Below, one piece after another: positions 10,237 to 46,155 of a stretch of DNA of 64,000 bases. The stretch's first letter is position 1; every line of letters begins with the position of its first letter. A program made the translations under genes and the position numbers. This DNA is from Leptolyngbya sp. BL0902 (GTDB taxonomy: Bacteria; Cyanobacteriota; Cyanobacteriia; Phormidesmidales; Phormidesmidaceae): positions 4,211,501-4,275,500 of the forward strand of contig NZ_CP046155.1 of assembly GCF_016403105.1 (NCBI RefSeq), written 5' to 3'. The notes under the pieces were generated by a model, which was not told where the DNA came from, searched no databases, and saw only the letters and a list, made by a program, of their open reading frames with translations.

Positions 10237-11289
10237 CTAGGGTTCGGCGGGCCAGTTAAAACCACGGGACTGCAAGAGCTGGCGCTGGCGCTGGCGGGCG
10301 AGGGTTTGCAGGTCGATGCTGCGGTCGGTTTCGTCTACAATTTCCCCGGTCAACACCTCTAGCACGTCCTCCAGGGTGACGACGCCGGAAACGCCGCCAT
10401 ACTCATCCACCACCACGGCCAAATGTTCGCGGGCGGTTTGAAATTCTTGCAGCAGCTTATCGGCCCGCTCGGTTTCGGAGACAAAGCGCACCGGGCGCAC
10501 CACATCGCGAATCAACTGCTGCCCTCGACCCTGGATGAGAGCCGCCAGCAGATCGTTTTTCATCACCAGGCCCAAAATGTGGTCGATGTCGGTGTCGCTG
10601 ACCAGGATGCGGCTGTGCTGGGAGTTGAAGATTTTGTCCTGGGCTTCGGCAATGGTGAGATCCCCCGGCAGGTGGGTAAGGGCCACCCGTGGGGTCATGA
10701 TGTTGATGGATTTGGTGTCGTTGAGGCGAAACACCCGCCGGATCATCTCTGCCTCGTCGGCTTCGATGATGCCCTCTTGGTGGCCGATGGTGGCCATCAG
10801 CTTAATTTCGGCTTCGTTGGTGCTGGGGCGCTGGCCAGAGTTGATAAACGGTGCTGTTACCCACTCAAGGGCCATCACAATCGGCGTAAAGAGCCAGGTC
10901 ATTCCGCGAATGGGCACCGCAATGGCCAGAGCTAGGGGAATAGCATAGCGTTCGCCAAAGATCTTCGGGAAAATCTCGCCAAACAGGATTACCAACAGGG
11001 TGAGCGCCGCCGTGAACATTCCCAACAGGGCATCTTGGAAAATCGTCGCGGCCATGCCCCCAATGAAAACGCTGCCCACGATGTTGAACAGGTTGTTGAG
11101 AATCACAATGGTGGCGATGGGGCGATTCACCCGCTGACGGATGGCCAGCAGGGCGAGGGCAGCGGGCTTTTGAGTCTCGGCCAGTTGCTGCACCTTGAGG
11201 ACAGGGATCGACAACAGGGCTACCTCGCTGCTAGAACATAGCGCCGAGCCGACAAGCATCACGAGAATAGCGAGTACCAGACTCAGCAT
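10237..11289 (-). CDS. CNNM/CorC-type membrane protein with CBS-domain pair
   Basis: A 350-residue DUF21 (CNNM) protein with four membrane segments within about residues 1-150, containing SSSEVALLS and GEIFPKIFGERYA. The adjacent CBS pair follows from about 190, with the conserved MTPR and MKNDLLAAL, then AVVVDEYGGVSGVVTLEDVLE. Family members export Mg2+ or other divalent cations, or are called hemolysin-like. The short C-terminal tail lacks a full CorC_HlyC domain. It is divergent from the ABC ATPase gene, with 182 bases between. Confidence 0.87.
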   Translation of the reverse strand: MLSLVLAILVMLVGSALCSSSEVALLSIPVLKVQQLAETQKPAALALLAIRQRVNRPIATIVILNNLFNIVGSVFIGGMAATIFQDALLGMFTAALTLLVILFGEIFPKIFGERYAIPLALAIAVPIRGMTWLFTPIVMALEWVTAPFINSGQRPSTNEAEIKLMATIGHQEGIIEADEAEMIRRVFRLNDTKSINIMTPRVALTHLPGDLTIAEAQDKIFNSQHSRILVSDTDIDHILGLVMKNDLLAALIQGRGQQLIRDVVRPVRFVSETERADKLLQEFQTAREHLAVVVDEYGGVSGVVTLEDVLEVLTGEIVDETDRSIDLQTLARQRQRQLLQSRGFNWPAEP

Positions 11290-36242: not shown

Positions 36243-37103
36243 GGTGATGCAAGGAGGGATAAGGGCAAGCCGCAGGGCTCGATTCATCACCTTAGCACCG
36301 AATTCTTAGGGTTATCGTCGGGTTATCGACAGACCACACCGGGGCAACGGAACCACCTCCAGGAGCCACCAAGGCCCTAGACCCAGCATTGGCAGGAGTC
36401 CCCAGTCCGAGGGAAGAGCTATTTCGCTGACCGATGGCGGCCCTCCCATCTAGGCAACCATCGAGAAAATACTGATCCGCTTGGGCGTGGTCATCACCCT
36501 ATCCACCCTGCCCAAGACGAGTACCAACGGATCTACCCTAACGCTGTAAATGCCGGGAAACTGGGCCAAACTCCCCTCCAGCCCTGGGAAAGGCAGGTTA
36601 TCTCATCAGCTTTTGGAAAAGCTTTTCTTAAGATAAGCTAAGCCATCTTAAGAAAAGCTGAAACGAAAATAAGGTTTTGATAAGGATTTCGCATTCAAAA
36701 ACTCACGTAAATTACTTTTTTGAGATCCAAAACCCTCTTTTTTACCCTTTATATGAGTTTATTTTTTCTCAATACTTTTATCAGTCTTGCGAATAGACAA
36801 AAATCAATAAACTCATCCCCTCTCACACTCAAAACCCTTTCTGCAAAAGCTTTTAGCAGCCCAGCACCTCCATTTCAATCAGAAATATAAGGAAAAAATA
36901 AGAAGGAAATGATAGTTCTAAAAAACACTTCTGCAAAAAATATTTACAATAACATCTGTGTTTATACTGAATAGTCTTGGGTAGCCTAGATATATGGTTG
37001 ATTCAGTTGGCTAATTTCCCTGTGAATGATGCAGGCTTAACCGCCATCAGGGAGCTAAATTGCTTTAGCCATTCCATTGTTTCAAGAAAAGTTGAGACTT
37101 CTC
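36243..37103. promoter_or_regulatory. 860-bp AT-rich leader of the chaperone-usher operon with strong palindromes
   Basis: Bases about 36600-37000 are far richer in A and T than the rest of the window and hold no gene. AGCTTTTCTTAAGAT (36620-36634) and ATCTTAAGAAAAGCT (36645-36659) form a perfect 15-bp inverted repeat with a 10-base spacer. AAAAGCTTTT occurs at 36617-36626 and again at 36845-36854, possibly a repeated operator. A -10-like TATACT lies at 36963-36968, with TTTACA at 36943-36948, though the 14-base spacing is short. Low-GC leaders often mark silenced or acquired surface loci. Here that is inference. Confidence 0.6.
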
Positions 37104-37583
37104 ATGAATTTGCTCAAAACGACCGCCATCGCTTCTTCCCTCGTCGCCGCCAGCTTTGTGATGGGCACTGGCATGGCCAAGGCTCAAACTGTGAACGTGC
37201 CTTTTGCTGGCACAGTTCTTGGGCTTTGCACCTTCCCTAATGCGGCTGTTCCAGGCGTGCTTGCTATCAACGCGGGCACAGGAGCAGTTACAACGACCAC
37301 TCCCGGCACGGTAGCCTTAACCTGCACTGGCCCCTTTAATTTCTCCGTGGCTGCTCCGGCGGCTACGGGTGCCAATGCCCTCGCCGGGGCGGGTGCCTCA
37401 ACAGCAACGCTGACTGTTCAAGGCACGACCGTGAATTCGGGCGCTGCTCCTACAGCCGTGAATGCAGCGGTTACTTTGGAGCCTGTTTCGGTCACGATGA
37501 CGTACCAGGTCGATGCAGGTGCACTTCCTGTTGGCCCTGGCCTTTACGGCTTTGACGTTGTCGTTACCGCTGCTGGTAACTAG
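37104..37583 (+). CDS. Pilin-like secreted subunit 1 of chaperone-usher fimbria
   Basis: A 159-residue secreted protein with a clear signal peptide (cleavage near AKA-Q, residue 27/28). The mature part is small, Ala/Thr/Val-rich and beta-stranded, with one cysteine pair (C42 and C74) placed as in spore-coat-U/sigma-type fimbrial subunits. The end reads GPGLYGFDVVVTAAGN, a typical last strand. It is the first gene of a four-gene run with chaperone and usher, so it is probably the major subunit, folded by donor-strand complementation. ATG 37104 is preferred to TTG 37077 because the signal peptide then starts cleanly (MNLLKTTAIASS). Confidence 0.72.
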   Translation: MNLLKTTAIASSLVAASFVMGTGMAKAQTVNVPFAGTVLGLCTFPNAAVPGVLAINAGTGAVTTTTPGTVALTCTGPFNFSVAAPAATGANALAGAGASTATLTVQGTTVNSGAAPTAVNAAVTLEPVSVTMTYQVDAGALPVGPGLYGFDVVVTAAGN

Positions 37584-37621
37584 GCCCGAGATAGGTGCAT
37601 GCCGTTTGTTTGGATGTAACC

Positions 37622-38065
37622 ATGTGTCGTCTACTGGCTACTACCGTGTTGGCGGGGGTGGGGGTGTTGTTTTCGCACCCAGCCCTCGCCCAGGTCATCA
37701 CCTTTCCCGCACAAACGCCAGGGGTTCTGGTGCAGCCAGCGGGAAATCCCCATCGCCTGCAAACAGGTGTTAATGGCACGGTCACGGTCAGCGTTGTGGG
37801 CGGACTTGGCGTCACATTGCAGGTGGCAGCGCCCACCTTTGTCTCTGGGCCAGGTGGACAAACTGACGATCCCCCTGGCACCATCAAAACGGCTACGGCC
37901 ACGTGGCCCACGGGTAGCGCTACCAGCGGCGGTGGGGCTGCACCCTTCCCGACGGCACTCACCACCGTCGTGAGTGTGTCGATGGCGGTGGATCGCCAAC
38001 CCCCCAACTTTTTTGCACCGGGTCTGTATAACTATCAAGTTGTTCTGACGGTTGCCGCGCCCTAG
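37622..38065 (+). CDS. Pilin-like secreted subunit 2 of chaperone-usher fimbria (no cysteine pair)
   Basis: A 147-residue secreted protein with signal peptide (MCRLLATTVLAGVG, cleavage near ALA-Q, 23/24). The mature chain is beta-rich and ends APGLYNYQVVLTVAAP, clearly related to the end of subunit 1 (GPGLYGFDVVVT). Apart from Cys2 in the signal it has no cysteine, so it lost or never had the subunit disulfide. It begins 39 bases after subunit 1 and ends 53 bases before the chaperone gene. It may be a minor, tip or terminating subunit. ATG 37622 is the likely start, though the ribosome site is weak. Confidence 0.66.
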   Translation: MCRLLATTVLAGVGVLFSHPALAQVITFPAQTPGVLVQPAGNPHRLQTGVNGTVTVSVVGGLGVTLQVAAPTFVSGPGGQTDDPPGTIKTATATWPTGSATSGGGAAPFPTALTTVVSVSMAVDRQPPNFFAPGLYNYQVVLTVAAP

Positions 38066-38118
38066 TAGGTGTCTGTTTTTAAGATTGCTGATTGAGCTTG
38101 CGTTTTGGTTCGTAAACT

Positions 38119-38934
38119 ATGTTTAGCCCACGCTGGTTGGCTGTTGCCTTACGTCCGTTGACCTCTGCTGTGGTGGCGCTGGGGGCCGTTGGCTTTCCAG
38201 CCCTAGCGCAGTTGTCTGTTAGCCCCCTAGTAATTGAATCTACGGCCAGCCAGGGCCAAGGGCAAGGGGTCATCATCCTGTCCAATACGGGTGAAACGCC
38301 GACCCGGCTGCGGGTGTATGCTGAGCCATTTACCTACGGGCGCGATGGCCTGGAAGTGTTGACGGAATCGGATCAGGATCTAACGCCCTACCTACTGTTT
38401 TCCCCCCGCGAACTGGTGATAGAACCAGGGCAAACTCGCATGGTGCGGCTAGCGGCGCGACTATTACCTAGCTTGGGCGAGGGAGAATTTCGCGCCATTG
38501 TGTTTACGGAATCCCTGGAAACGATGCCCTTCGGCACTGACGGAAATGTAACCGTGGGGATTATTCCCCGCGTTGGCGTGACGATGTATGTGCGGCAGGG
38601 AAATGTAGCCCCAGCTTTAGAGGTGCTATCTGCCACTGTGCAGCCAGAGGACGGCAGAATTGCCCTGCTGGTGGCCAATGCCGGAGACGCCACCGCCCGC
38701 CCCGCCGTCAATTGGGCCTTGGTGCACAACGGCACCACCCAGGCCAGCGGTAGAGAAGGCGAAACCACGGTGATTGCAGGCGGAGACCGAAACCTGATGA
38801 TTGACCATACCGCCAACCAAGAGCCCCCCCTCGCACCGGGCACCTACACCCTCAGCGGAACGCTGACTTGGACGCTGGACAATCGCCAAGAAACCCTGCC
38901 CTTTAGCGTGCCCGTTACCCTGCCAGCGCCCTAG
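38119..38934 (+). CDS. Periplasmic pilus-assembly chaperone (PapD-like fold)
   Basis: A 271-residue protein with signal peptide ending at ALA-Q (30/31). Domain 1 is an immunoglobulin-like fold typical of fimbrial chaperones: LSVSPLVIES, GQGVIILSNTGETPTRLRVYAEP, SPRELVIEPGQTRMVRL and EGEFRAIVF. Domain 2 follows (VGVTMYVRQGN, LLVANAGDATARPAVNW). These match the sigma/archaic-type chaperones rather than FGL/FGS enterobacterial ones. It should cap the G strand of the two upstream subunits and deliver them to the usher gene 75 bases downstream. The ATG at 38119 is the only convenient start. Confidence 0.8.
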   Translation: MFSPRWLAVALRPLTSAVVALGAVGFPALAQLSVSPLVIESTASQGQGQGVIILSNTGETPTRLRVYAEPFTYGRDGLEVLTESDQDLTPYLLFSPRELVIEPGQTRMVRLAARLLPSLGEGEFRAIVFTESLETMPFGTDGNVTVGIIPRVGVTMYVRQGNVAPALEVLSATVQPEDGRIALLVANAGDATARPAVNWALVHNGTTQASGREGETTVIAGGDRNLMIDHTANQEPPLAPGTYTLSGTLTWTLDNRQETLPFSVPVTLPAP

Positions 38935-39009
38935 GGTGCGGCTCTGCTCCCTGATTGCCCTCCGCCTCTCCTCACAATCAGCGCATCCTTTTCATTTCAG
39001 GCAAGTTTT

Positions 39010-41745
39010 ATGTTAGCCCCCCTCCGCATGGTTCTCGTTGCGCCCTGTTTGGGGTTTCTCCTCGCCCTGGGCCATGCCATCCTCCCCCAACCCGCCCTCA
39101 CCCAAGAGCCCACCGTCAGCGACGCTACCCACGATGCACCCGGCGATGGTAGTGCGGTAGAGGCGGCATCTCCCCAGCCCCAAACACCGCTGGCGCAAGA
39201 GGTCATCCCAGAAGCTAGCGCCCCAGAGGCTGAAATCCCCAATGGGGACGGCGTGGATGCGGTGGCGTTTGATCTCCTTCCGGTGGGCATTTTGGTGGGC
39301 GACCGTCCTCGGACAGACGTGGTTTTGGTGCGTGGGGCCGACAATGGTCTAGAGGCCGTGGCCCTAGAACGCTGGCTGGTGCCCGTTGAGGTGGTGATGC
39401 AGGCGCTTCAGCTTCAGCGCACCGTGCTAGACAGCGGCGAATGGGAACTGCGGTCTCCCGGTTTGGTGATTCGGCTGAACCCCGACGAACTGGTAATGGA
39501 TCCAGACCTGGGGTTAGCGATGTCGGTGGCCGACATTGAGCAGCGCCTAGGGGTGCCCGTCAGCTTTGAGATCGCCAACTATGCCCTGCGGCTCGATCCG
39601 CCCTGGGCAGGGCAGTTTCGGCGGGGGCAGTTTGCCGATCAGCCCGTGATCACCGAGGGCTTGCCCGTGGTGCCTTCGGAGTCTTTTACCGCCACCGCCG
39701 TTGCCCAGCGGATGGATTTCTTTGGCAGCAACGGCGTCAACAATGATCAGGGACAGTTCACCGCCCTGGGGGGGCTGCTGGGCGGGAGCTGGTTTTTCCG
39801 CATGAACCAGCAGGACTTGTTTGATAGCGGCACCTGGAGTCTGTCGGAACTGCAATACCTCAACCAATCCGACGGGGCCGACTATGCCTTGGGGTCTCAG
39901 CCCACCTTTTGGCCCAGCGTTAATGGCACCAGCGGCCAACCGTTTTGGGGCGTCACCACCATTCAGCGGTTTGGCTATGTGCCTGCGTTTTTCTCTGGCA
40001 GCGGTGGGTTTAGCCCCAGTTTGCGCCAACAGGCCGATGTGGTGGGGCGCACCATCCAAGGCGAAGCCCCGCCCAATACCCTAGTGCAGCTCACCCTCAA
40101 CTTTCGCAGCAACGTGATTGCCGAAACCCTAGTGGATTCCAGCGGCATCTACCGCTTTGAGAATATTCCGGGCAATACGGGCCGCTACGAGGTGCTGCTG
40201 TTTCCTAACGGCCAGCTCACCGCCGAACCAGAGGTACGTCCGGCCACGTTCTCCACCCTGCCCAGTCGGTTATCGGCGGGAACGTCGGCCCTGGTGGCCT
40301 CGGTGGGGGCGGGCCGGGTGCTTCGGCCCAACGAGTTTTTGGGCGACTTTGAAACCGTCATGGCTGGGGCCTCCTACCGCTATGGGGTGTCGGATGAACT
40401 CACCCTGGGGGCCGGGGTGGTGCAGGATAGATCGCTCTTTGGCCTAGGGGAACTCTTCTACGAACCGGATTGGGCACCCATCCGACTGGCCGCTACCCTG
40501 GCAGGCGGGGCCAACCAAGTGGCTGTCAATGCCGACTTCACCTACGAGCCGTCCACTGCCTTCCGGCTCGACCTCAATACCGACCCCTTCAGTTCCCGAT
40601 TTTTGGCAAGTTGGCAGGCCATGCCTGGTTTGCGGCTGCGGCTGGGGGGCAACAGTCGGGAAAATGCCCTAATTGCCGGAGCCTCGTTTTTCTACAGCAC
40701 CTTCGATTTTAATGTCAACGGCAGCGTAGACTACACCACCGATAACTTCCTGCGCTGGAGCCTGCTGTCTCGGTTTGACCGGGCCGAACTGCGCAGCTTT
40801 GGCAACGAACTGAGCACCAACAACGAACTCAATGTCAAACTCAACAACGACCGTAACTTCACCCAAGGCCACTTTATGCGCCTAGGCTACGAAACCCAAG
40901 CCGCTGGTGCGAATAACCTCGTCACCCTGGGCTGGCGCTACCGTTCTCCAGGCCGTGCCATTGATGGCCGCTACTTCTGGGAAATGGACTTGGGCTATGG
41001 CCTGGGTAGCCAGGGCAATGGGGTGGTGGCATCGTTGGGTACGGCTATTTTGCCCGGTGTGGTGCTGCGGGCCAGGTATGACGGCGTTTCGGTCTTAAGT
41101 GGAAACGACAGCTACCGCATCGAACTAGTGCCCTTCATCAACACCCAGGCGGGCGTTTGGTCGCAGGACTCCCGCTACGACTATCTACGCCAGGAGGGGG
41201 GGCTGTGGATTCAACCCTTCCTAGACCGCAACGGCAACGGCCAGCGCGACGACGGCGAACCCCTCTACCTCGACAACGCCGAACTCCTGTTTGTGGTGGA
41301 TAATCAGCCCCTACTACCCAACCAGTTTGAACGGCAAGCCAACGGCATTTTCCTACGCTTGCCCCCCGGCCTCCATCGTCTAGACCTCGACCCAGCTGGG
41401 TTCCCCATCGATGGCCAACCCAGCCAAACGGCCTACGCCGTGGAAGTGACCTCCGGCAGCTATACGCCCGTGCCCATTCCCATCACCCGTGCTTTCACCG
41501 TGGCCGGACGGGTGCTCGACGCCGAGGGCAACCCCGTTGCCGGAGCACGGGTAGAAGCCATCCCCCAAAACGGCGGTGGGCCGCGCCTGTCTGTTACCAA
41601 CCGGGCCGGAATTTACTACCTCGAAGATCTGAGAACGGGCACCTACCAACTACGGGTGAACGGCAGTCCCGTCCAGCCCAGCGACGTCACCCTCACCGAC
41701 ATGAGCGAAGGACTCCAGGAAATCAACCTGCGCCTTGCAGACTAA
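39010..41745 (+). CDS. Fimbrial outer-membrane usher
   Basis: A 911-residue usher that receives chaperone-subunit complexes and secretes the fibre. Signal peptide to about residue 31 (PALT-Q), then an acidic Pro/Glu-rich linker and an N-terminal domain at about 85-200. The barrel follows with a mid/plug beta-sandwich near 340-420 (VQLTLNFRSNVIAETLVDSSG in part; SGIYRFENIPGN). Strands continue (FRLDLNTDPF, DYTTDNFLRWSLLSRF). The C-terminal domain from about 830 resembles a carboxypeptidase-regulatory fold (VAGRVLDAEGNPVAGARVEA; RAGIYYLEDLRTGTYQLRV). Long acidic stretches near 725-745 (DRNGNGQRDDGEP) suggest Ca2+ binding. It is the last gene of the operon. Confidence 0.85.
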   Translation: MLAPLRMVLVAPCLGFLLALGHAILPQPALTQEPTVSDATHDAPGDGSAVEAASPQPQTPLAQEVIPEASAPEAEIPNGDGVDAVAFDLLPVGILVGDRPRTDVVLVRGADNGLEAVALERWLVPVEVVMQALQLQRTVLDSGEWELRSPGLVIRLNPDELVMDPDLGLAMSVADIEQRLGVPVSFEIANYALRLDPPWAGQFRRGQFADQPVITEGLPVVPSESFTATAVAQRMDFFGSNGVNNDQGQFTALGGLLGGSWFFRMNQQDLFDSGTWSLSELQYLNQSDGADYALGSQPTFWPSVNGTSGQPFWGVTTIQRFGYVPAFFSGSGGFSPSLRQQADVVGRTIQGEAPPNTLVQLTLNFRSNVIAETLVDSSGIYRFENIPGNTGRYEVLLFPNGQLTAEPEVRPATFSTLPSRLSAGTSALVASVGAGRVLRPNEFLGDFETVMAGASYRYGVSDELTLGAGVVQDRSLFGLGELFYEPDWAPIRLAATLAGGANQVAVNADFTYEPSTAFRLDLNTDPFSSRFLASWQAMPGLRLRLGGNSRENALIAGASFFYSTFDFNVNGSVDYTTDNFLRWSLLSRFDRAELRSFGNELSTNNELNVKLNNDRNFTQGHFMRLGYETQAAGANNLVTLGWRYRSPGRAIDGRYFWEMDLGYGLGSQGNGVVASLGTAILPGVVLRARYDGVSVLSGNDSYRIELVPFINTQAGVWSQDSRYDYLRQEGGLWIQPFLDRNGNGQRDDGEPLYLDNAELLFVVDNQPLLPNQFERQANGIFLRLPPGLHRLDLDPAGFPIDGQPSQTAYAVEVTSGSYTPVPIPITRAFTVAGRVLDAEGNPVAGARVEAIPQNGGGPRLSVTNRAGIYYLEDLRTGTYQLRVNGSPVQPSDVTLTDMSEGLQEINLRLAD

Positions 41746-42111
41746 ACCGCCTTCGTGGTAGGGCTGGGGGAAATGCCTGGTAAATGGGGTGATCTAGCCC
41801 TCGCCCGATTGAACCCCAGGCCAAGGTCAGCTCAGTGGCCCAACAGCCTAGAAACCCACCCAGCGGGAAGCAGGCTACCCCCCCAGTCCCTCTTCCTACC
41901 AAGGGTTAGGCTACGGCGGCTTGGCAATCTCCTCAGCCTGGATGCAGTCTGCGGCAGCGCCCCAGCAGGCATAAAACTTATCGAAAAGTAACTATAACTT
42001 TATGGCAGAGGCTGACAATCTTTATGAAAATAAAGGTATTCTAAGGCGGCAGTAGCATCCCAGGGTGACGGGCCGACTTCATTACCTCACCAAACCCTAG
42101 GCACAACCATC
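41746..42111. promoter_or_regulatory. 366-bp spacer after the usher gene
   Basis: No gene is supported. The right end (about 41970-42060) is AT-rich and may carry the promoter of the next small gene: TATAACTTTATGG lies near 41994-42006. I see no hairpin with a T-run after the usher stop, so the end of the usher transcript is not defined. Confidence 0.35.
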
Positions 42112-42408
42112 ATGTATGCCCTAGCAGCCGATCACTTGCTGTACTACAAAATTACATCGGGGCCAGAGGGCTGTCGCATTCGTATTTGGGAAACCCCGGA
42201 TACAGCGGAGGAAGGCGAACAGGGGTCTTACTTATACATCATCAATCTTCGGGTGGCCAACGTGGCCGAGGCGAAGGCCGTGCTCACCCACCACCTTGCC
42301 CTCAACGGAGGAGCCCTTGCCTGTGACCAGGCGGAGTTCCCCCACAAGGGCAAAATTCGTATTCTGGCCTTCCCCACCTGGAATCGTCAGGAGCCCCCGG
42401 AGAGCTAG
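42112..42408 (+). CDS. Hypothetical protein, 98 residues
   Basis: A small soluble, mixed alpha/beta protein without signal peptide (MYALAADHLLYYKITSGPEG, then IRIWETPDTAEEGEQGSYLY, and a helix VAEAKAVLTHHLALNGG). I do not recognise it. It begins at ATG 42112 with no strong ribosome site and is followed 28 bases later by another small gene in the same direction, so the two may form an operon. Codon use is like that of neighbours. Confidence 0.55.
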   Translation: MYALAADHLLYYKITSGPEGCRIRIWETPDTAEEGEQGSYLYIINLRVANVAEAKAVLTHHLALNGGALACDQAEFPHKGKIRILAFPTWNRQEPPES

Positions 42409-42436
42409 CCCCCGTCGTCTTTCTGAGGTAGCCATC

Positions 42437-42739
42437 ATGCTTGTCAGCCATCTCCAACGCCTGACCCAAGACGCCACCTACCGCGACCTTGCCCTCCGCT
42501 GCCAAGAGTTTTTGTACTACCACGACCATGCCCCCCGCCTAGGGCACGACGAGCACCGCCAACTGGCCGAAGATACCCTCTACAACCTGCTGGTGGAGTA
42601 CCTGATTGGCACCGGAATGCCCCGTCCCCAGGCTGAGCAATTTTGTAACCAGAGGGATCACCTCGTTGAGCTGGCGCTTCGCATTGCCTCCATCCTGGGG
42701 CCGTCTGCCCATGGAGCAAGCCCCTGGCCAGCCTCCTAG
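42437..42739 (+). CDS. Hypothetical protein, 100 residues, helical
   Basis: A small predicted all-helical soluble protein (MLVSHLQRLTQDATYRDLAL, LAEDTLYNLLVEYLIGTGMP, HLVELALRIASILG). I do not recognise the family. ATG 42437 has GAGGT about 9 bases upstream, which supports the start. The frame is open to 42296, but that part overlaps the preceding gene. Its stop overlaps by four bases the stop of the convergent beta-barrel gene. Confidence 0.58.
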   Translation: MLVSHLQRLTQDATYRDLALRCQEFLYYHDHAPRLGHDEHRQLAEDTLYNLLVEYLIGTGMPRPQAEQFCNQRDHLVELALRIASILGPSAHGASPWPAS

Positions 42740-44058
42740 AACAGCGGCACCGTGGCATCAATGGTAAAGCCAAAAATGGTGTCATTCAACCGCAGGCGCG
42801 GGTCGGAGGAACGGCCAAAGCTGCGGCCACCATAGAGGCTGAGCCGTACCCGTGGGGTGAGGCTATAGACCACCTGCCCCAGGAGTTGTTGCACGGTGTC
42901 TTGGCGGTCTTGGGTGCTGTAGTTGATCCGGTTGATCTGATAGCTGATGCCCGTGTGCCATCGGGCAGTGGGGGTATAGCCCAGGTAGGCTCCGGCGGTG
43001 TGGGACAGGCGGCTGAAGTCGGTGGTAAAAATGCTGCCGTCGATGGCTTGGCTGCGGGCCTGGGCCTGATTCCACTGCACCTGATAGAAGCTGTCGAGGG
43101 TGAGGTTGGGGGCGAGGGGATCGCTGCGACCCAGGGAGAGGGCCACGGATCGGTTATCAAAGAAGCGAAAGCCCCCCGTTCGCAGGAGTTCTTGGTAGGC
43201 AAGGCTGAGTTGGGCGTAGGCCCTGGGGGAGAGTTCCTGGCGCAGGGCTAGTCTGGCCTGCCAGCCGCTATAGTCGAGATCCAGCCGCTGACCATAGCGC
43301 TGAAGGCCTAGATCCAGTTCGCCAATGAGCAGGGTTTGGGGGCCAAGGCTAGGATAGATAGCCACACTGGCCGCAGGGCGATAGAACCGATCCCCCGTCA
43401 GGCCACCCACCTCGTTCTCCACCAGCAAAACGTTATCGCTACTCACCGCCGAAAACCGAGTGGTGAGAAACGCGATCTTGGTGGGCGGCGGCGACAACGG
43501 GGGCTGCTCACGAATACGCAAAATGCCCAGTTCGGGATCTTCTAGGGGGTTTCGCACCCGAATAATGCCCAATTCGGGATCACCCTCCCCACCGTCTGGA
43601 TCGTCATCCGAGGCGAGCGGCCCAGCAGAACCCGGATCAACCTCCGGCGGCAATGGCCAACCCTCAGATGCCGCTGCGGGAGGGTCTGGGCTAGAAGGAT
43701 GGGAAACAAGGGCTGATCTGGCAACAGCAGTAGATGGTGGGGTGGCCCCGTGCTCCCTTGAGACAGCCTGGGCTAGATCCGGCGGGCTAGGCGTTCTAGT
43801 CTCAGCCGGAATTGGCAGGGGCAGCAGCGCTGGGAGGGCGGGTTTCGGGGTGTCCTTAGACCCTTGTAACCACGGGGCAACGGGCGACGATGCAGCAATC
43901 TCGTGGTCGTCAGCGGGGTAGGCCCCAGGAAAATGAGGCGATGCCTTAACCTCGATGCCCTCGGTGGCGAGGGCCGCTGGGCCAAGGCCGCCTAATCCCC
44001 CCAGGCTGATCAGGGCCGAGAAAACCATCCATGGTTGGGGCCGGAGGGAGAAAATCAT
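42736..44058 (-). CDS. Outer-membrane beta-barrel protein with duplicated DPELGI motif
   Basis: A 440-residue secreted protein. The signal peptide spans about 1-32 (cleavage near ALA-T). A Pro/Ser/Ala/Asp-rich region of about 130 residues follows. Then a 14-residue duplication DPELGIIRVRNPLE / DPELGILRIREQPP occurs at about residues 161-188. The final 240 residues are barrel strands of alternating hydrophobicity (TLLIGELDLGLQRYG, ARLALRQELSPRAYAQLSLAY in part, VRLSLYGGRSF) ending in TVPLF, the terminal Phe typical of barrels. Function unknown. It may be an anchor or receptor for surface polymers, given the FecR and usher neighbours. Confidence 0.7.
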   Translation of the reverse strand: MIFSLRPQPWMVFSALISLGGLGGLGPAALATEGIEVKASPHFPGAYPADDHEIAASSPVAPWLQGSKDTPKPALPALLPLPIPAETRTPSPPDLAQAVSREHGATPPSTAVARSALVSHPSSPDPPAAASEGWPLPPEVDPGSAGPLASDDDPDGGEGDPELGIIRVRNPLEDPELGILRIREQPPLSPPPTKIAFLTTRFSAVSSDNVLLVENEVGGLTGDRFYRPAASVAIYPSLGPQTLLIGELDLGLQRYGQRLDLDYSGWQARLALRQELSPRAYAQLSLAYQELLRTGGFRFFDNRSVALSLGRSDPLAPNLTLDSFYQVQWNQAQARSQAIDGSIFTTDFSRLSHTAGAYLGYTPTARWHTGISYQINRINYSTQDRQDTVQQLLGQVVYSLTPRVRLSLYGGRSFGRSSDPRLRLNDTIFGFTIDATVPLF

Positions 44059-44538
44059 TCAGTCCAGGGAGAATGAATCATCCGTAAAATCACTGCATTT
44101 GCTGGGTGTTTCTTGCCGTTTTGGATTGACTTTATCAAATTTTTGTAAACTCCGTCGGCGACCTACGCCCTGCCATGGGGCGCGTTCATCCGTTGTTTTC
44201 CTGAGGCATAACGGGCTAAATCCTTGATCTACCTAGGGTTCTCCCAAGCCATGCCGTCGGCCCAGGGCTTTCCAAGGGCCGCTGAGAATGTCTGTTAGCG
44301 TTCACCCTCCCCATGAAGCAGTGACTAAGTATCGTTGTCGAGTTACGTCGTGTAAACACTGATGATTTTCATGAAGTACCATTGAAGGGAAGGTGCTTTA
44401 CCCAGGACTGGGGGGAAAGTTACGCAACGGAGGGAGCGTTATCGCCAGCCGTCGCAAGATCTCCCGAAAATCCTGCCTCCAATCTCAGGCTCGCAGACCT
44501 CAGAGCTCACGTTGAATGTTGTCATTGGCCTGAATGCT
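44059..44538. promoter_or_regulatory. 480-bp divergent promoter region
   Basis: No gene is supported between the divergent beta-barrel and FecR genes. The left half contains TTGACTTTATCAAATTTTTG (44124-44143), AT-rich and promoter-like for either direction. The right half has TAAACACTGATGATTTTCATG near 44351-44371. The boxes do not meet consensus spacing, so precise promoters are not called. Confidence 0.35.
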
Positions 44539-46155
44539 ATGGCTCAGCTACCTTGGATGTCCGGCCCCCGGACACTTCGCCCTCTTAGGGCTCTCGTTCT
44601 TGTTGTCTCTATGGCTATGCTAGGGGTGGTGGGAGAAGGTGGAGCCCCTGCCCATGCCAATGTGGTTCTCACCCGCGCCGACGTTGAAGCCATTCTCAAC
44701 CGCGTGGAGCTGATTCAGCAGGGGCAAGCCGCCCGCATGGCCCGCCAACGCGACAGGATGACGGTGGGCGATGCCCTCCGAACGGCGGCTCAGTCCCAGG
44801 CTCAACTGCGCTTTAACGATGGTTCCTTGGCTCGAGTAGGTGAGCGGGCTACGTTTCAGTTTTCGCCCAATACCCGCAATTTCCGCCTCTCCAATGGCAC
44901 AGTGCTGTTGCTCATTCCCCCAGGGCGCGGACGTAGTACCATTCAAACCCCTAGCGCTATCACCGGGATTCAGGGATCGGCGTTGGTGGTGCGCCACATT
45001 GAAGATCGCGACCTCACCATTGTGATGGCCCTGACTAATAACCCCGCTGGGCCAATGACCGTTACCCCCCTAGGCTGCGACGGGGGCGAGGTCTCTAGAC
45101 CCTGTGGGCCAGAGTATCCGCTCCATGCCGGACAGATGGCTCTAGTGCAGCACAACCAGGTGCAAATTCTAGAGTTTGATTTGTTCACCTTCTATGAGAC
45201 GAGTTCCCTGGTTGATGGTCTGGAACTGGATAACCCCGATGCCTCCGTGTCCCTGGGGCCAGATCTCGACCCGGTGCGAGGTGAAACCCTTGAAGCCCTC
45301 TCGCAGTTCTCAGACGACGCGGCAATGGCGATACTTAATCCCGATATCGTCTCCATTACCCCACGCGCTGGCACGCTCACCAGCGAACCTGGGTTGACCA
45401 TCCCCAACCCCAATCTATTGGGACAGGGTCAGCGTCCACCTAGTATTTCCCCTTTGCTCGATCATTTACCAGGCATTTCCCCAGCCCTACCCAATCCCCA
45501 GAATTCGGCCTCGGCGTCCCCACCTGTGCAACCCACCACCACGCCGCCAGTCACGCCGCCAGTCACGCCGCAAAATCCGGTAGCGCAACCCCCAACAACT
45601 CCTCCACCCAACGCGCCGCAAAATCCCGGAACACGGCCTCCCGCTGCGCCGCCACCGAACACGCTGCAAAATCCAGTAGCGCAACCCCCAACAAATCGTC
45701 CACCTAACACGCCGCAAAATCCTGGAACACGGCCTCCTGCTGCGCCGCCAGTCACGCCGCAAAATCCAGTAGCGCAACCCCCAACGGCTCCTCCACCCAA
45801 TGCGCCGCAAAATCCCGGAACACGGCCTCCCGCTGCGCCGCCACCGAACACGCCGCAAAATCCTGGAACACGGCCTCCTGCTGCGCCGCCAACCAATGCG
45901 CCGCAAAATCCGGTAGTGCAACCCCCAACGGCTCCTCCACCCAATGCGCCGCAAAATCCCGGAACACAGCCTCCCGCTGCGCCGCCAGACACAGGGGTGC
46001 AGCCTCCGGCAACTCAACCCCCAAACGCCCAGCCCCCAGGCCAACCCAATCGGCCAGGAAGCCCTAATGTTCCGGCGAGTCCGCCCCCTTTTCAAGAGAA
46101 CCCAACTGTTCCCGCCCGCCCCCCCGCCAATCCACCTGTCATCTTTCAGCCCTAG
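44539..46155 (+). CDS. FecR-domain secreted protein with Pro-rich tandem repeats
   Basis: A 538-residue protein. The N-terminus is a signal/membrane segment (LRALVLVVSMAMLGVVG, cleavage near AHA-N). It is followed by a FecR-type domain (about 45-170): VGDALRTAAQSQAQLRFNDG, ATFQFSPNTRNFRLSNGTVL and TPSAITGIQGSALVV are its blocks. In cyanobacteria such domains occur on secreted proteins and not as anti-sigma factors. After a 120-residue linker the rest is Pro-rich: eight to nine 16-residue units alternating NPVAQPPTAPPPNAPQ and NPGTRPPAAPPPNTPQ. I use ATG 44539. TTG 44512 and ATG 44557 are alternatives. Confidence 0.78.
   Translation: MAQLPWMSGPRTLRPLRALVLVVSMAMLGVVGEGGAPAHANVVLTRADVEAILNRVELIQQGQAARMARQRDRMTVGDALRTAAQSQAQLRFNDGSLARVGERATFQFSPNTRNFRLSNGTVLLLIPPGRGRSTIQTPSAITGIQGSALVVRHIEDRDLTIVMALTNNPAGPMTVTPLGCDGGEVSRPCGPEYPLHAGQMALVQHNQVQILEFDLFTFYETSSLVDGLELDNPDASVSLGPDLDPVRGETLEALSQFSDDAAMAILNPDIVSITPRAGTLTSEPGLTIPNPNLLGQGQRPPSISPLLDHLPGISPALPNPQNSASASPPVQPTTTPPVTPPVTPQNPVAQPPTTPPPNAPQNPGTRPPAAPPPNTLQNPVAQPPTNRPPNTPQNPGTRPPAAPPVTPQNPVAQPPTAPPPNAPQNPGTRPPAAPPPNTPQNPGTRPPAAPPTNAPQNPVVQPPTAPPPNAPQNPGTQPPAAPPDTGVQPPATQPPNAQPPGQPNRPGSPNVPASPPPFQENPTVPARPPANPPVIFQP
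45574..45987 (+). repeat. 48-bp coding tandem repeat inside the FecR-domain gene
   Basis: Eight copies plus a partial ninth of a 48-bp unit, most exactly 48 bases and one 45. Each begins AATCC and ends GCCGCAA. Units alternate between two types (NPVAQPPT- and NPGTRPPA-), so the higher-order period is 96 bp. Near-identity at DNA level suggests recent expansion and likely length variation between strains. Confidence 0.88.

Follow-up and report, generated by a model that had tools for sequence, protein, structure and literature searches.

Chaperone-usher (CU) systems are already known from cyanobacteria: an archaic system has been described in which CccS is the subunit, CccP the chaperone and Slr0019 the usher, and reviews of cyanobacterial appendages have counted CU systems by the Pfam families PF00577, PF00345 and PF05229 (PMC4390875). 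Published work on cyanobacterial CU systems concerns this PF00577/SCPU type. Here we analyze a stretch of 64,000 nucleotides from Leptolyngbya sp. BL0902 (contig NZ_CP046155.1, positions 4,211,501 to 4,275,500), hereafter the window, in which four genes on one strand form, with high probability, a CU assembly line; the branch to which it belongs goes undetected by the standard usher and chaperone models. We found no description of this family in the open-access literature, a search that left most subscription journals and all preprints outside its reach. The four core genes, separated by gaps of 38, 53 and 75 bp, are as follows (coordinates within the window).

37104 to 37583, forward strand: subunit 1 (pilin 1), open reading frame of 159 aa
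37622 to 38065, forward strand: subunit 2 (pilin 2), open reading frame of 147 aa
38119 to 38934, forward strand: chaperone, open reading frame of 271 aa, predicted periplasmic protein of non-classical CU type
39010 to 41745, forward strand: usher, open reading frame of 911 aa, predicted outer-membrane protein

The initial annotation had placed six open reading frames in this region, all of which we recovered at the same positions, and had read the chaperone, the usher and the two related subunits as a CU locus; that reading holds up, on firmer grounds than those first offered, in comparisons of profile against profile, in predicted structures and in conserved residues. The test it suggested, a hidden Markov model search with PF00577, PF00345 and PF05229, fails for the window proteins with all three models. 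In Pfam the subunits and the chaperone have no significant match and the usher matches only a C-terminal carboxypeptidase-regulatory-like domain (PF13620); NCBIfam adds nothing above its cut-offs for the window proteins, and single-sequence searches of the PDB and of Pfam/NCBIfam with the usher, the chaperone and the subunits gave no useful match. What, then, identifies the locus? We assign it to the CU systems because four independent lines agree: the usher, the chaperone, the subunits and the gene order.

An AlphaFold2 model of the usher, built from 57 sequences with a mean predicted local distance difference test score (pLDDT) of 80.4, predicts an N-terminal domain (about residues 88-195), six strands (230-321), a plug-like insert (about 347-411), further barrel strands (426-711) and two C-terminal domains, the last of which matches PF13620. 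The insert is a small beta domain that follows strand six and precedes some twenty more strands, and the plug of FimD and PapC is likewise placed after strand six. When the model was compared with the PDB by Foldseek, the best 16 matches were all FimD or PapC (E 3e-24 to 9e-12), ahead of any other fold. At the sequence level, kinship to PF00577 ushers is visible only profile against profile: hhalign paired the usher family profile with cyanobacterial PF00577 ushers (plus FimD) at 98% probability and E 1e-13 over 645 columns, and an unrelated barrel family, used as a negative control, reached 1.4% against the window usher profile and 3.5% against the PF00577 ushers. The usher profile did not match FimD, EcpC or the contig 4 usher of the same genome as single sequences, apart from the C-terminus of EcpC at 2%; among PDB sequences it gave weak non-usher matches only, and a search of a plasmid collection with the usher found no match. 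CooC_C (PF15976) matched 9 of 28 usher homologues, always below its cut-off, and TcfC (PF16967) was not among the matches listed. With its barrel, plug-like insert, N-terminal domain and two C-terminal domains, the modeled protein is a predicted outer-membrane usher.

The chaperone profile matched only EcpB and CsuC among PDB sequences (E 0.02-0.05), with EcpB best and CsuC at E 0.04. In hhalign the chaperone reached 88% with the PF00345 chaperone on contig 4 of the same genome and 86.5% with EcpB, and did not match FimC. Of the residues that characterize CsuC, Pro59 is invariant across the whole CU superfamily and Arg89 is diagnostic of archaic and alternative chaperones (Pakharukova et al., PMC4654587). 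Both have equivalents in the window chaperone, invariant in 29 of 29 relatives: Pro96 is in register with Pro59, and Arg125 with Arg89, in strand F of domain 1. Tyr243 (29/29) and Arg224 (28/29) are candidate counterparts of CsuC Tyr196 and Arg174 by spacing only (19 versus 22), domain 2 being aligned to CsuC at its start only. All four residues are kept in a sister family whose chaperones are only 22-26% identical to that of the window. A plain tblastn search with the chaperone also reached, at E 4e-6, a protein of Polaromonas plasmid 2 that is annotated as a fimbrial chaperone and passes PF00345. Judged by its sequence, the window protein is thus identified as a PapD-like CU chaperone of the non-classical type.

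Both subunits carry a signal peptide and share a C-terminal end (PGLYGFDVVVT in subunit 1, PGLYNYQVVLT in subunit 2), features that the initial annotation had pointed out and that are visible in the translations. Subunit 1 has two cysteines and a short N-terminal donor-strand-like extension, TVNVPFAGTV, and its AlphaFold2 model (pLDDT 81.5) predicts an incomplete immunoglobulin (Ig)-like pilin fold. The best Foldseek matches of this model in the PDB are mostly CU pilins (best E 0.01, probabilities up to 1.00) and include CfaB, the best of them, CupE, CfaE, FimH, CS17, FimG, PapA, CsuA/B and Caf1; the subunit profile found nothing among PDB sequences. In most mature subunits of the family the first conserved cysteine, at about mature position 14, is preceded by a short N-terminal segment of alternating pattern, xVxVPFxGTV, which resembles the donor-strand extensions of CU pilins.

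Subunit 2 is built without such an extension: when the two are aligned, its mature start, QVITFPAQTPGVL, falls on the A strand of subunit 1. Subunits of this type recur in the paralogous cluster of the same genome (L032) and in relatives, and about 20 of some 118 subunits are extension-less, starting directly at the next strand despite a signal peptide (other such mature starts are SEPLCTFSQATPGQL and QLSLTCPSTGSL). The extension-less gene stands directly upstream of the chaperone in eleven loci, including the window and its paralogue, and in five other loci it directly follows an extension-bearing subunit. Absence of cysteines is a separate trait, as cysteine-less subunits with an extension exist (e.g. 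L092, L118). The initial annotation had described subunit 2 as lacking cysteines and had thought this unusual; the former is true of the mature part and not of the whole precursor, whose signal peptide starts MCRLL, and cysteine-less subunits recur in relatives.

The gene order is conserved. In a survey of 80 usher loci of relatives a chaperone was found in 69 and a recognized subunit in 62, many of the remaining loci being truncated at a contig edge, and the chaperone lies within 1.5 kb upstream of the usher in 60 of the 66 loci with both genes on one strand. Upstream of the chaperone there are no recognized subunit genes in 5 loci, one in 25, two in 15, three in 6 and four in 1, so the two-subunit set is neither a minimum nor unusual within the family, contrary to what the initial annotation had supposed. 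The second copy in the same genome, L032, has an usher 80% identical to that of the window and three subunit genes. The core cluster is far beyond chance, because tens of genomes have these four genes side by side and the same genome holds this paralogue.

We scanned 386 genomes of the phylum and counted an usher as being of the window type at E below 1e-60. It is present in 29 genomes, or 36 with the sister family, and in 41 at E below 0.001; a PF00577 usher is present in 19, and 7 genomes own both types. The contrast is conservative, because a single-sequence search is less sensitive than the PF00577 profile. A second scan placed the family in Nostoc, Calothrix, Fischerella, Anabaena, Dolichospermum, Moorena, Coleofasciculus, Pseudanabaena and others, together with four gammaproteobacterial records (Crenothrix/Methylococcales, Parabeggiatoa). 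In a quick tree, weakly supported and with long branches, the proteobacterial copies cluster together among the cyanobacterial ones, which suggests that they were acquired by transfer. Some usher-like proteins of the collection are short, about 655 aa (L062:7242-9206, L063:5299-7278, L064:6220-8199); their match stops before the C-terminal domains and no recognized chaperone lies nearby. In other loci (L035, L051, L061, L076, L136, L137) the usher is split into two open reading frames, which suggests repeated decay or sequencing errors.

How might these parts work together? Both subunits would reach the periplasm via the Sec pathway, where the chaperone would supply a strand to the unfinished Ig-like fold of each, gripping the subunit C-terminus by its conserved arginine and probably also by the Tyr/Arg pair, in the manner of non-classical CU chaperones. 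The chaperone-subunit complexes would be taken up by the usher, whose outer-membrane barrel is predicted to contain a plug, and the exported subunits would be joined by donor-strand exchange. Subunit 2, with no donor strand, would exit first and come to lie at the tip; subunit 1, the predicted polymerizing shaft subunit, would follow in many copies, each inserting its N-terminal strand into the subunit that left before it. The product would be a thin adhesive fibre on the cell surface. We place subunit 2 at the tip because a subunit without a strand to donate can only go out first, and on balance we favor, by a modest degree, its role as a single-domain tip or initiator subunit at the window locus. 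There is precedent in AggB and AafB, single-domain capping subunits of the aggregative adherence fimbriae (AAF) that lack an N-terminal extension (PMC5029526), and the two-subunit set of the window reads as shaft plus tip. In L041-L043 the pilin 2 homologue carries an extension, and therefore a tip role is not valid for every homologue of subunit 2. Larger subunits of 297-377 aa, without an N-terminal extension and apparently of two domains, were also seen (L057:10501-11634, L058:3840-4859, L122:3605-4498); two of these three stand directly upstream of the chaperone, a tip-adhesin-like architecture.

Besides these extension-bearing homologues, several observations weigh against the assignment to a CU assembly line. 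The Pfam CU families stay below threshold for every core protein, and relatives fare no better: PF00577 matches none of the 28 usher homologues, PF00345 (PapD) matches none of 29 chaperone homologues, and SCPU (PF05229) matches 3 of 26 subunits, with a best E of 0.018 that is below cut-off. The TM-scores of the usher model are only 0.40-0.52, its plug region has a pLDDT of 56-68, and its barrel strand number falls somewhere in the range 24-26. The signal cleavage sites, which define the mature starts, were set by a simple rule.

Where does the family belong among CU systems? With CccS-CccP-Slr0019/UshA of Synechocystis (PF05229, PF00345 and PF00577) the window locus shares its subunit-chaperone-usher logic, its phylum and the profile homology of usher and chaperone, but its proteins fail all three Pfam models, and the counterpart of the known type is a separate locus. 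The whole genome contains one PF00577 usher, on contig 4, whose neighbours are a chaperone that passes PF00345 and a subunit close to the SCPU threshold, and this locus is the genome's sigma/PF00577 system, of the CccS/CccP/Slr0019 kind; the initial annotation, which had filed the window genes under a sigma-like clade, was partly right, although the sigma system proper is this other locus. The Csu pilus (CsuC, CsuA/B) and CupE have the subunit fold in common with the window, whose chaperone also carries the equivalents of Pro59 and Arg89, whereas the match to CsuC is weak and the window subunits have no above-threshold SCPU match. The CsuE tip of the Csu pilus is two-domain; the candidate tip of the window is one-domain and extension-less. 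Among alternative systems (EcpB/EcpC, CFA/I CfaB/CfaE, CooC), EcpB is the best PDB match of the chaperone profile, CfaB is the best fold match of subunit 1 and CooC_C is matched below threshold by some window-type ushers, but EcpC is essentially unmatched by the usher profile. Type 1 and P pili (FimD, PapC, FimC) share the usher fold, but neither FimC nor FimD is matched by the sequence profiles.

Two further systems resemble the window locus in organization. AAF/Afa-Dr fibres (AggB/AafB/HdaB) likewise pair one polymerizing subunit with one single-domain extension-less subunit (PMC5029526), but they have no detectable homology to the window proteins and their chaperones are of the classical FGL class. 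On plasmid 2 of Polaromonas sp. JS666 (L192), subunits, chaperone and a carboxypeptidase-like regulatory domain protein follow in the same order, the chaperone is the one reached by tblastn, and the usher-like protein is also missed by PF00577; its subunits, however, match PF14352 (DUF4402), and its usher similarity to the window is limited to the C-terminus. This CU-like locus, which is flanked by IS6 transposases, suggests that DUF4402 is a CU pilin domain.

One explanation, possible though we would not bet on it, is that the family is simply a rapidly diverging lineage of the archaic (sigma) class, to which CccS/CccP/Slr0019 belong, with an identical mode of action. In its favor, the chaperone bears the archaic/alternative arginine and is linked by profile comparison to the genome's own PF00345 chaperone, and the usher profile matches cyanobacterial PF00577 ushers; on the other side, none of 28-29 members has a PF00577 or PF00345 match, SCPU stays below threshold in the few subunits that it reaches, the best single PDB match of the chaperone is EcpB, of the alternative class, and both types coexist in the same genome. 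Measured by Pfam, the family lacks the PF00577, PF00345 and PF05229 matches of the archaic/sigma class and also the above-threshold CooC_C or TcfC match of the alternative/alpha class. We raise, tentatively and short of even confidence, the idea that the window family and its sister family (L065-L070) are a fourth major CU class beside the classical, alternative and archaic ones, centered on cyanobacteria with a few Proteobacteria, which would be the commonest cyanobacterial CU machinery, overlooked as surveys used PF00577. The sister loci (L065, L066, L068, L069, L070) combine usher and chaperone with different subunits, and several share a 740-aa gene, polyphosphate kinase-like by eye, and more common genes downstream.

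The same machinery might instead export subunits for a coat or a capsule-like layer on the cell surface and not for discrete pili, which we consider unlikely. CU-like systems are able to build non-fimbrial structures (PMC4390875) and, in Myxococcus, a spore coat (Leng et al., as cited in PMC3610870), and thin, flexible fibres would be consistent with the short extension and the very small subunits. Nothing in the sequence favors a coat, and the presence of an extension-less subunit agrees with a tipped fibre. That the locus is decaying and inactive is very improbable: ushers are split in several relatives (L035, L051, L061), but the four window genes are open, as is the 80% paralogue, and the key residues are kept.

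Downstream of the CU cluster the strand changes after the usher, and two further genes follow.

42736 to 44058, reverse strand: barrel protein with the DPELGI motif, open reading frame
44512 to 46155, forward strand: FecR/Pro-rich protein, open reading frame with a Pfam FecR match

The barrel has no significant Pfam match and sub-threshold similarity only to EpsL-type outer-membrane proteins. Homologues of the FecR or barrel protein occur in none of the 80 usher loci of relatives. Our own search found barrel homologues in 36 of 386 genomes; for 37 of 38 of them a FecR homologue lies no more than 3 kb away, 34 of 38 in divergent orientation, and the pair is kept in 35 of the 36 genomes. In other genomes with both on one contig, 0.27-4.7 Mb separate the pair from an usher-like gene. 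FecR and barrel are thus a separate conserved two-gene unit that happens to adjoin the CU cluster here, and we rejected them as parts of the CU system. The initial annotation had named co-occurrence of the six genes as the outcome that would support it and had held that FecR and barrel genes usually far from ushers would reduce the larger system to coincidental clustering, and such distances are what we found. A six-gene surface system, in which the CU core works with the FecR/Pro-rich and DPELGI barrel proteins, has adjacency in this window alone in its favor and is refuted as a general system, so that we give it next to no credence.

Upstream, the operon is preceded by one further feature.

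36600 to 37080, forward strand: AT-rich leader 5' of the operon (GC content 33.9%; window as a whole 59.3%)

A GC scan of the whole window puts its lowest-GC 400 bp from 36601, and the block is probably a regulatory leader, a predicted function. A milder GC dip of similar length precedes the L032 cluster (about 10428-10930), and the two look like a shared regulatory leader. Promoter and terminator scans gave matches no more frequent than chance, and Rfam matched nothing over 35-47 kb.

The window-type usher is present in more cyanobacterial genomes than the PF00577 type, yet it is invisible to standard usher models. If the fibres are built, an adhesive organelle that has apparently never been looked for is present in cyanobacteria ranging from Nostoc and Calothrix to Moorena, with consequences, if true, for the biology of biofilms, mats and symbioses. 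The extension-less subunit is recognizable from sequence and usable for tip prediction, and the identity of the cyanobacterial thin pili that are not of type IV becomes testable via a single usher gene.

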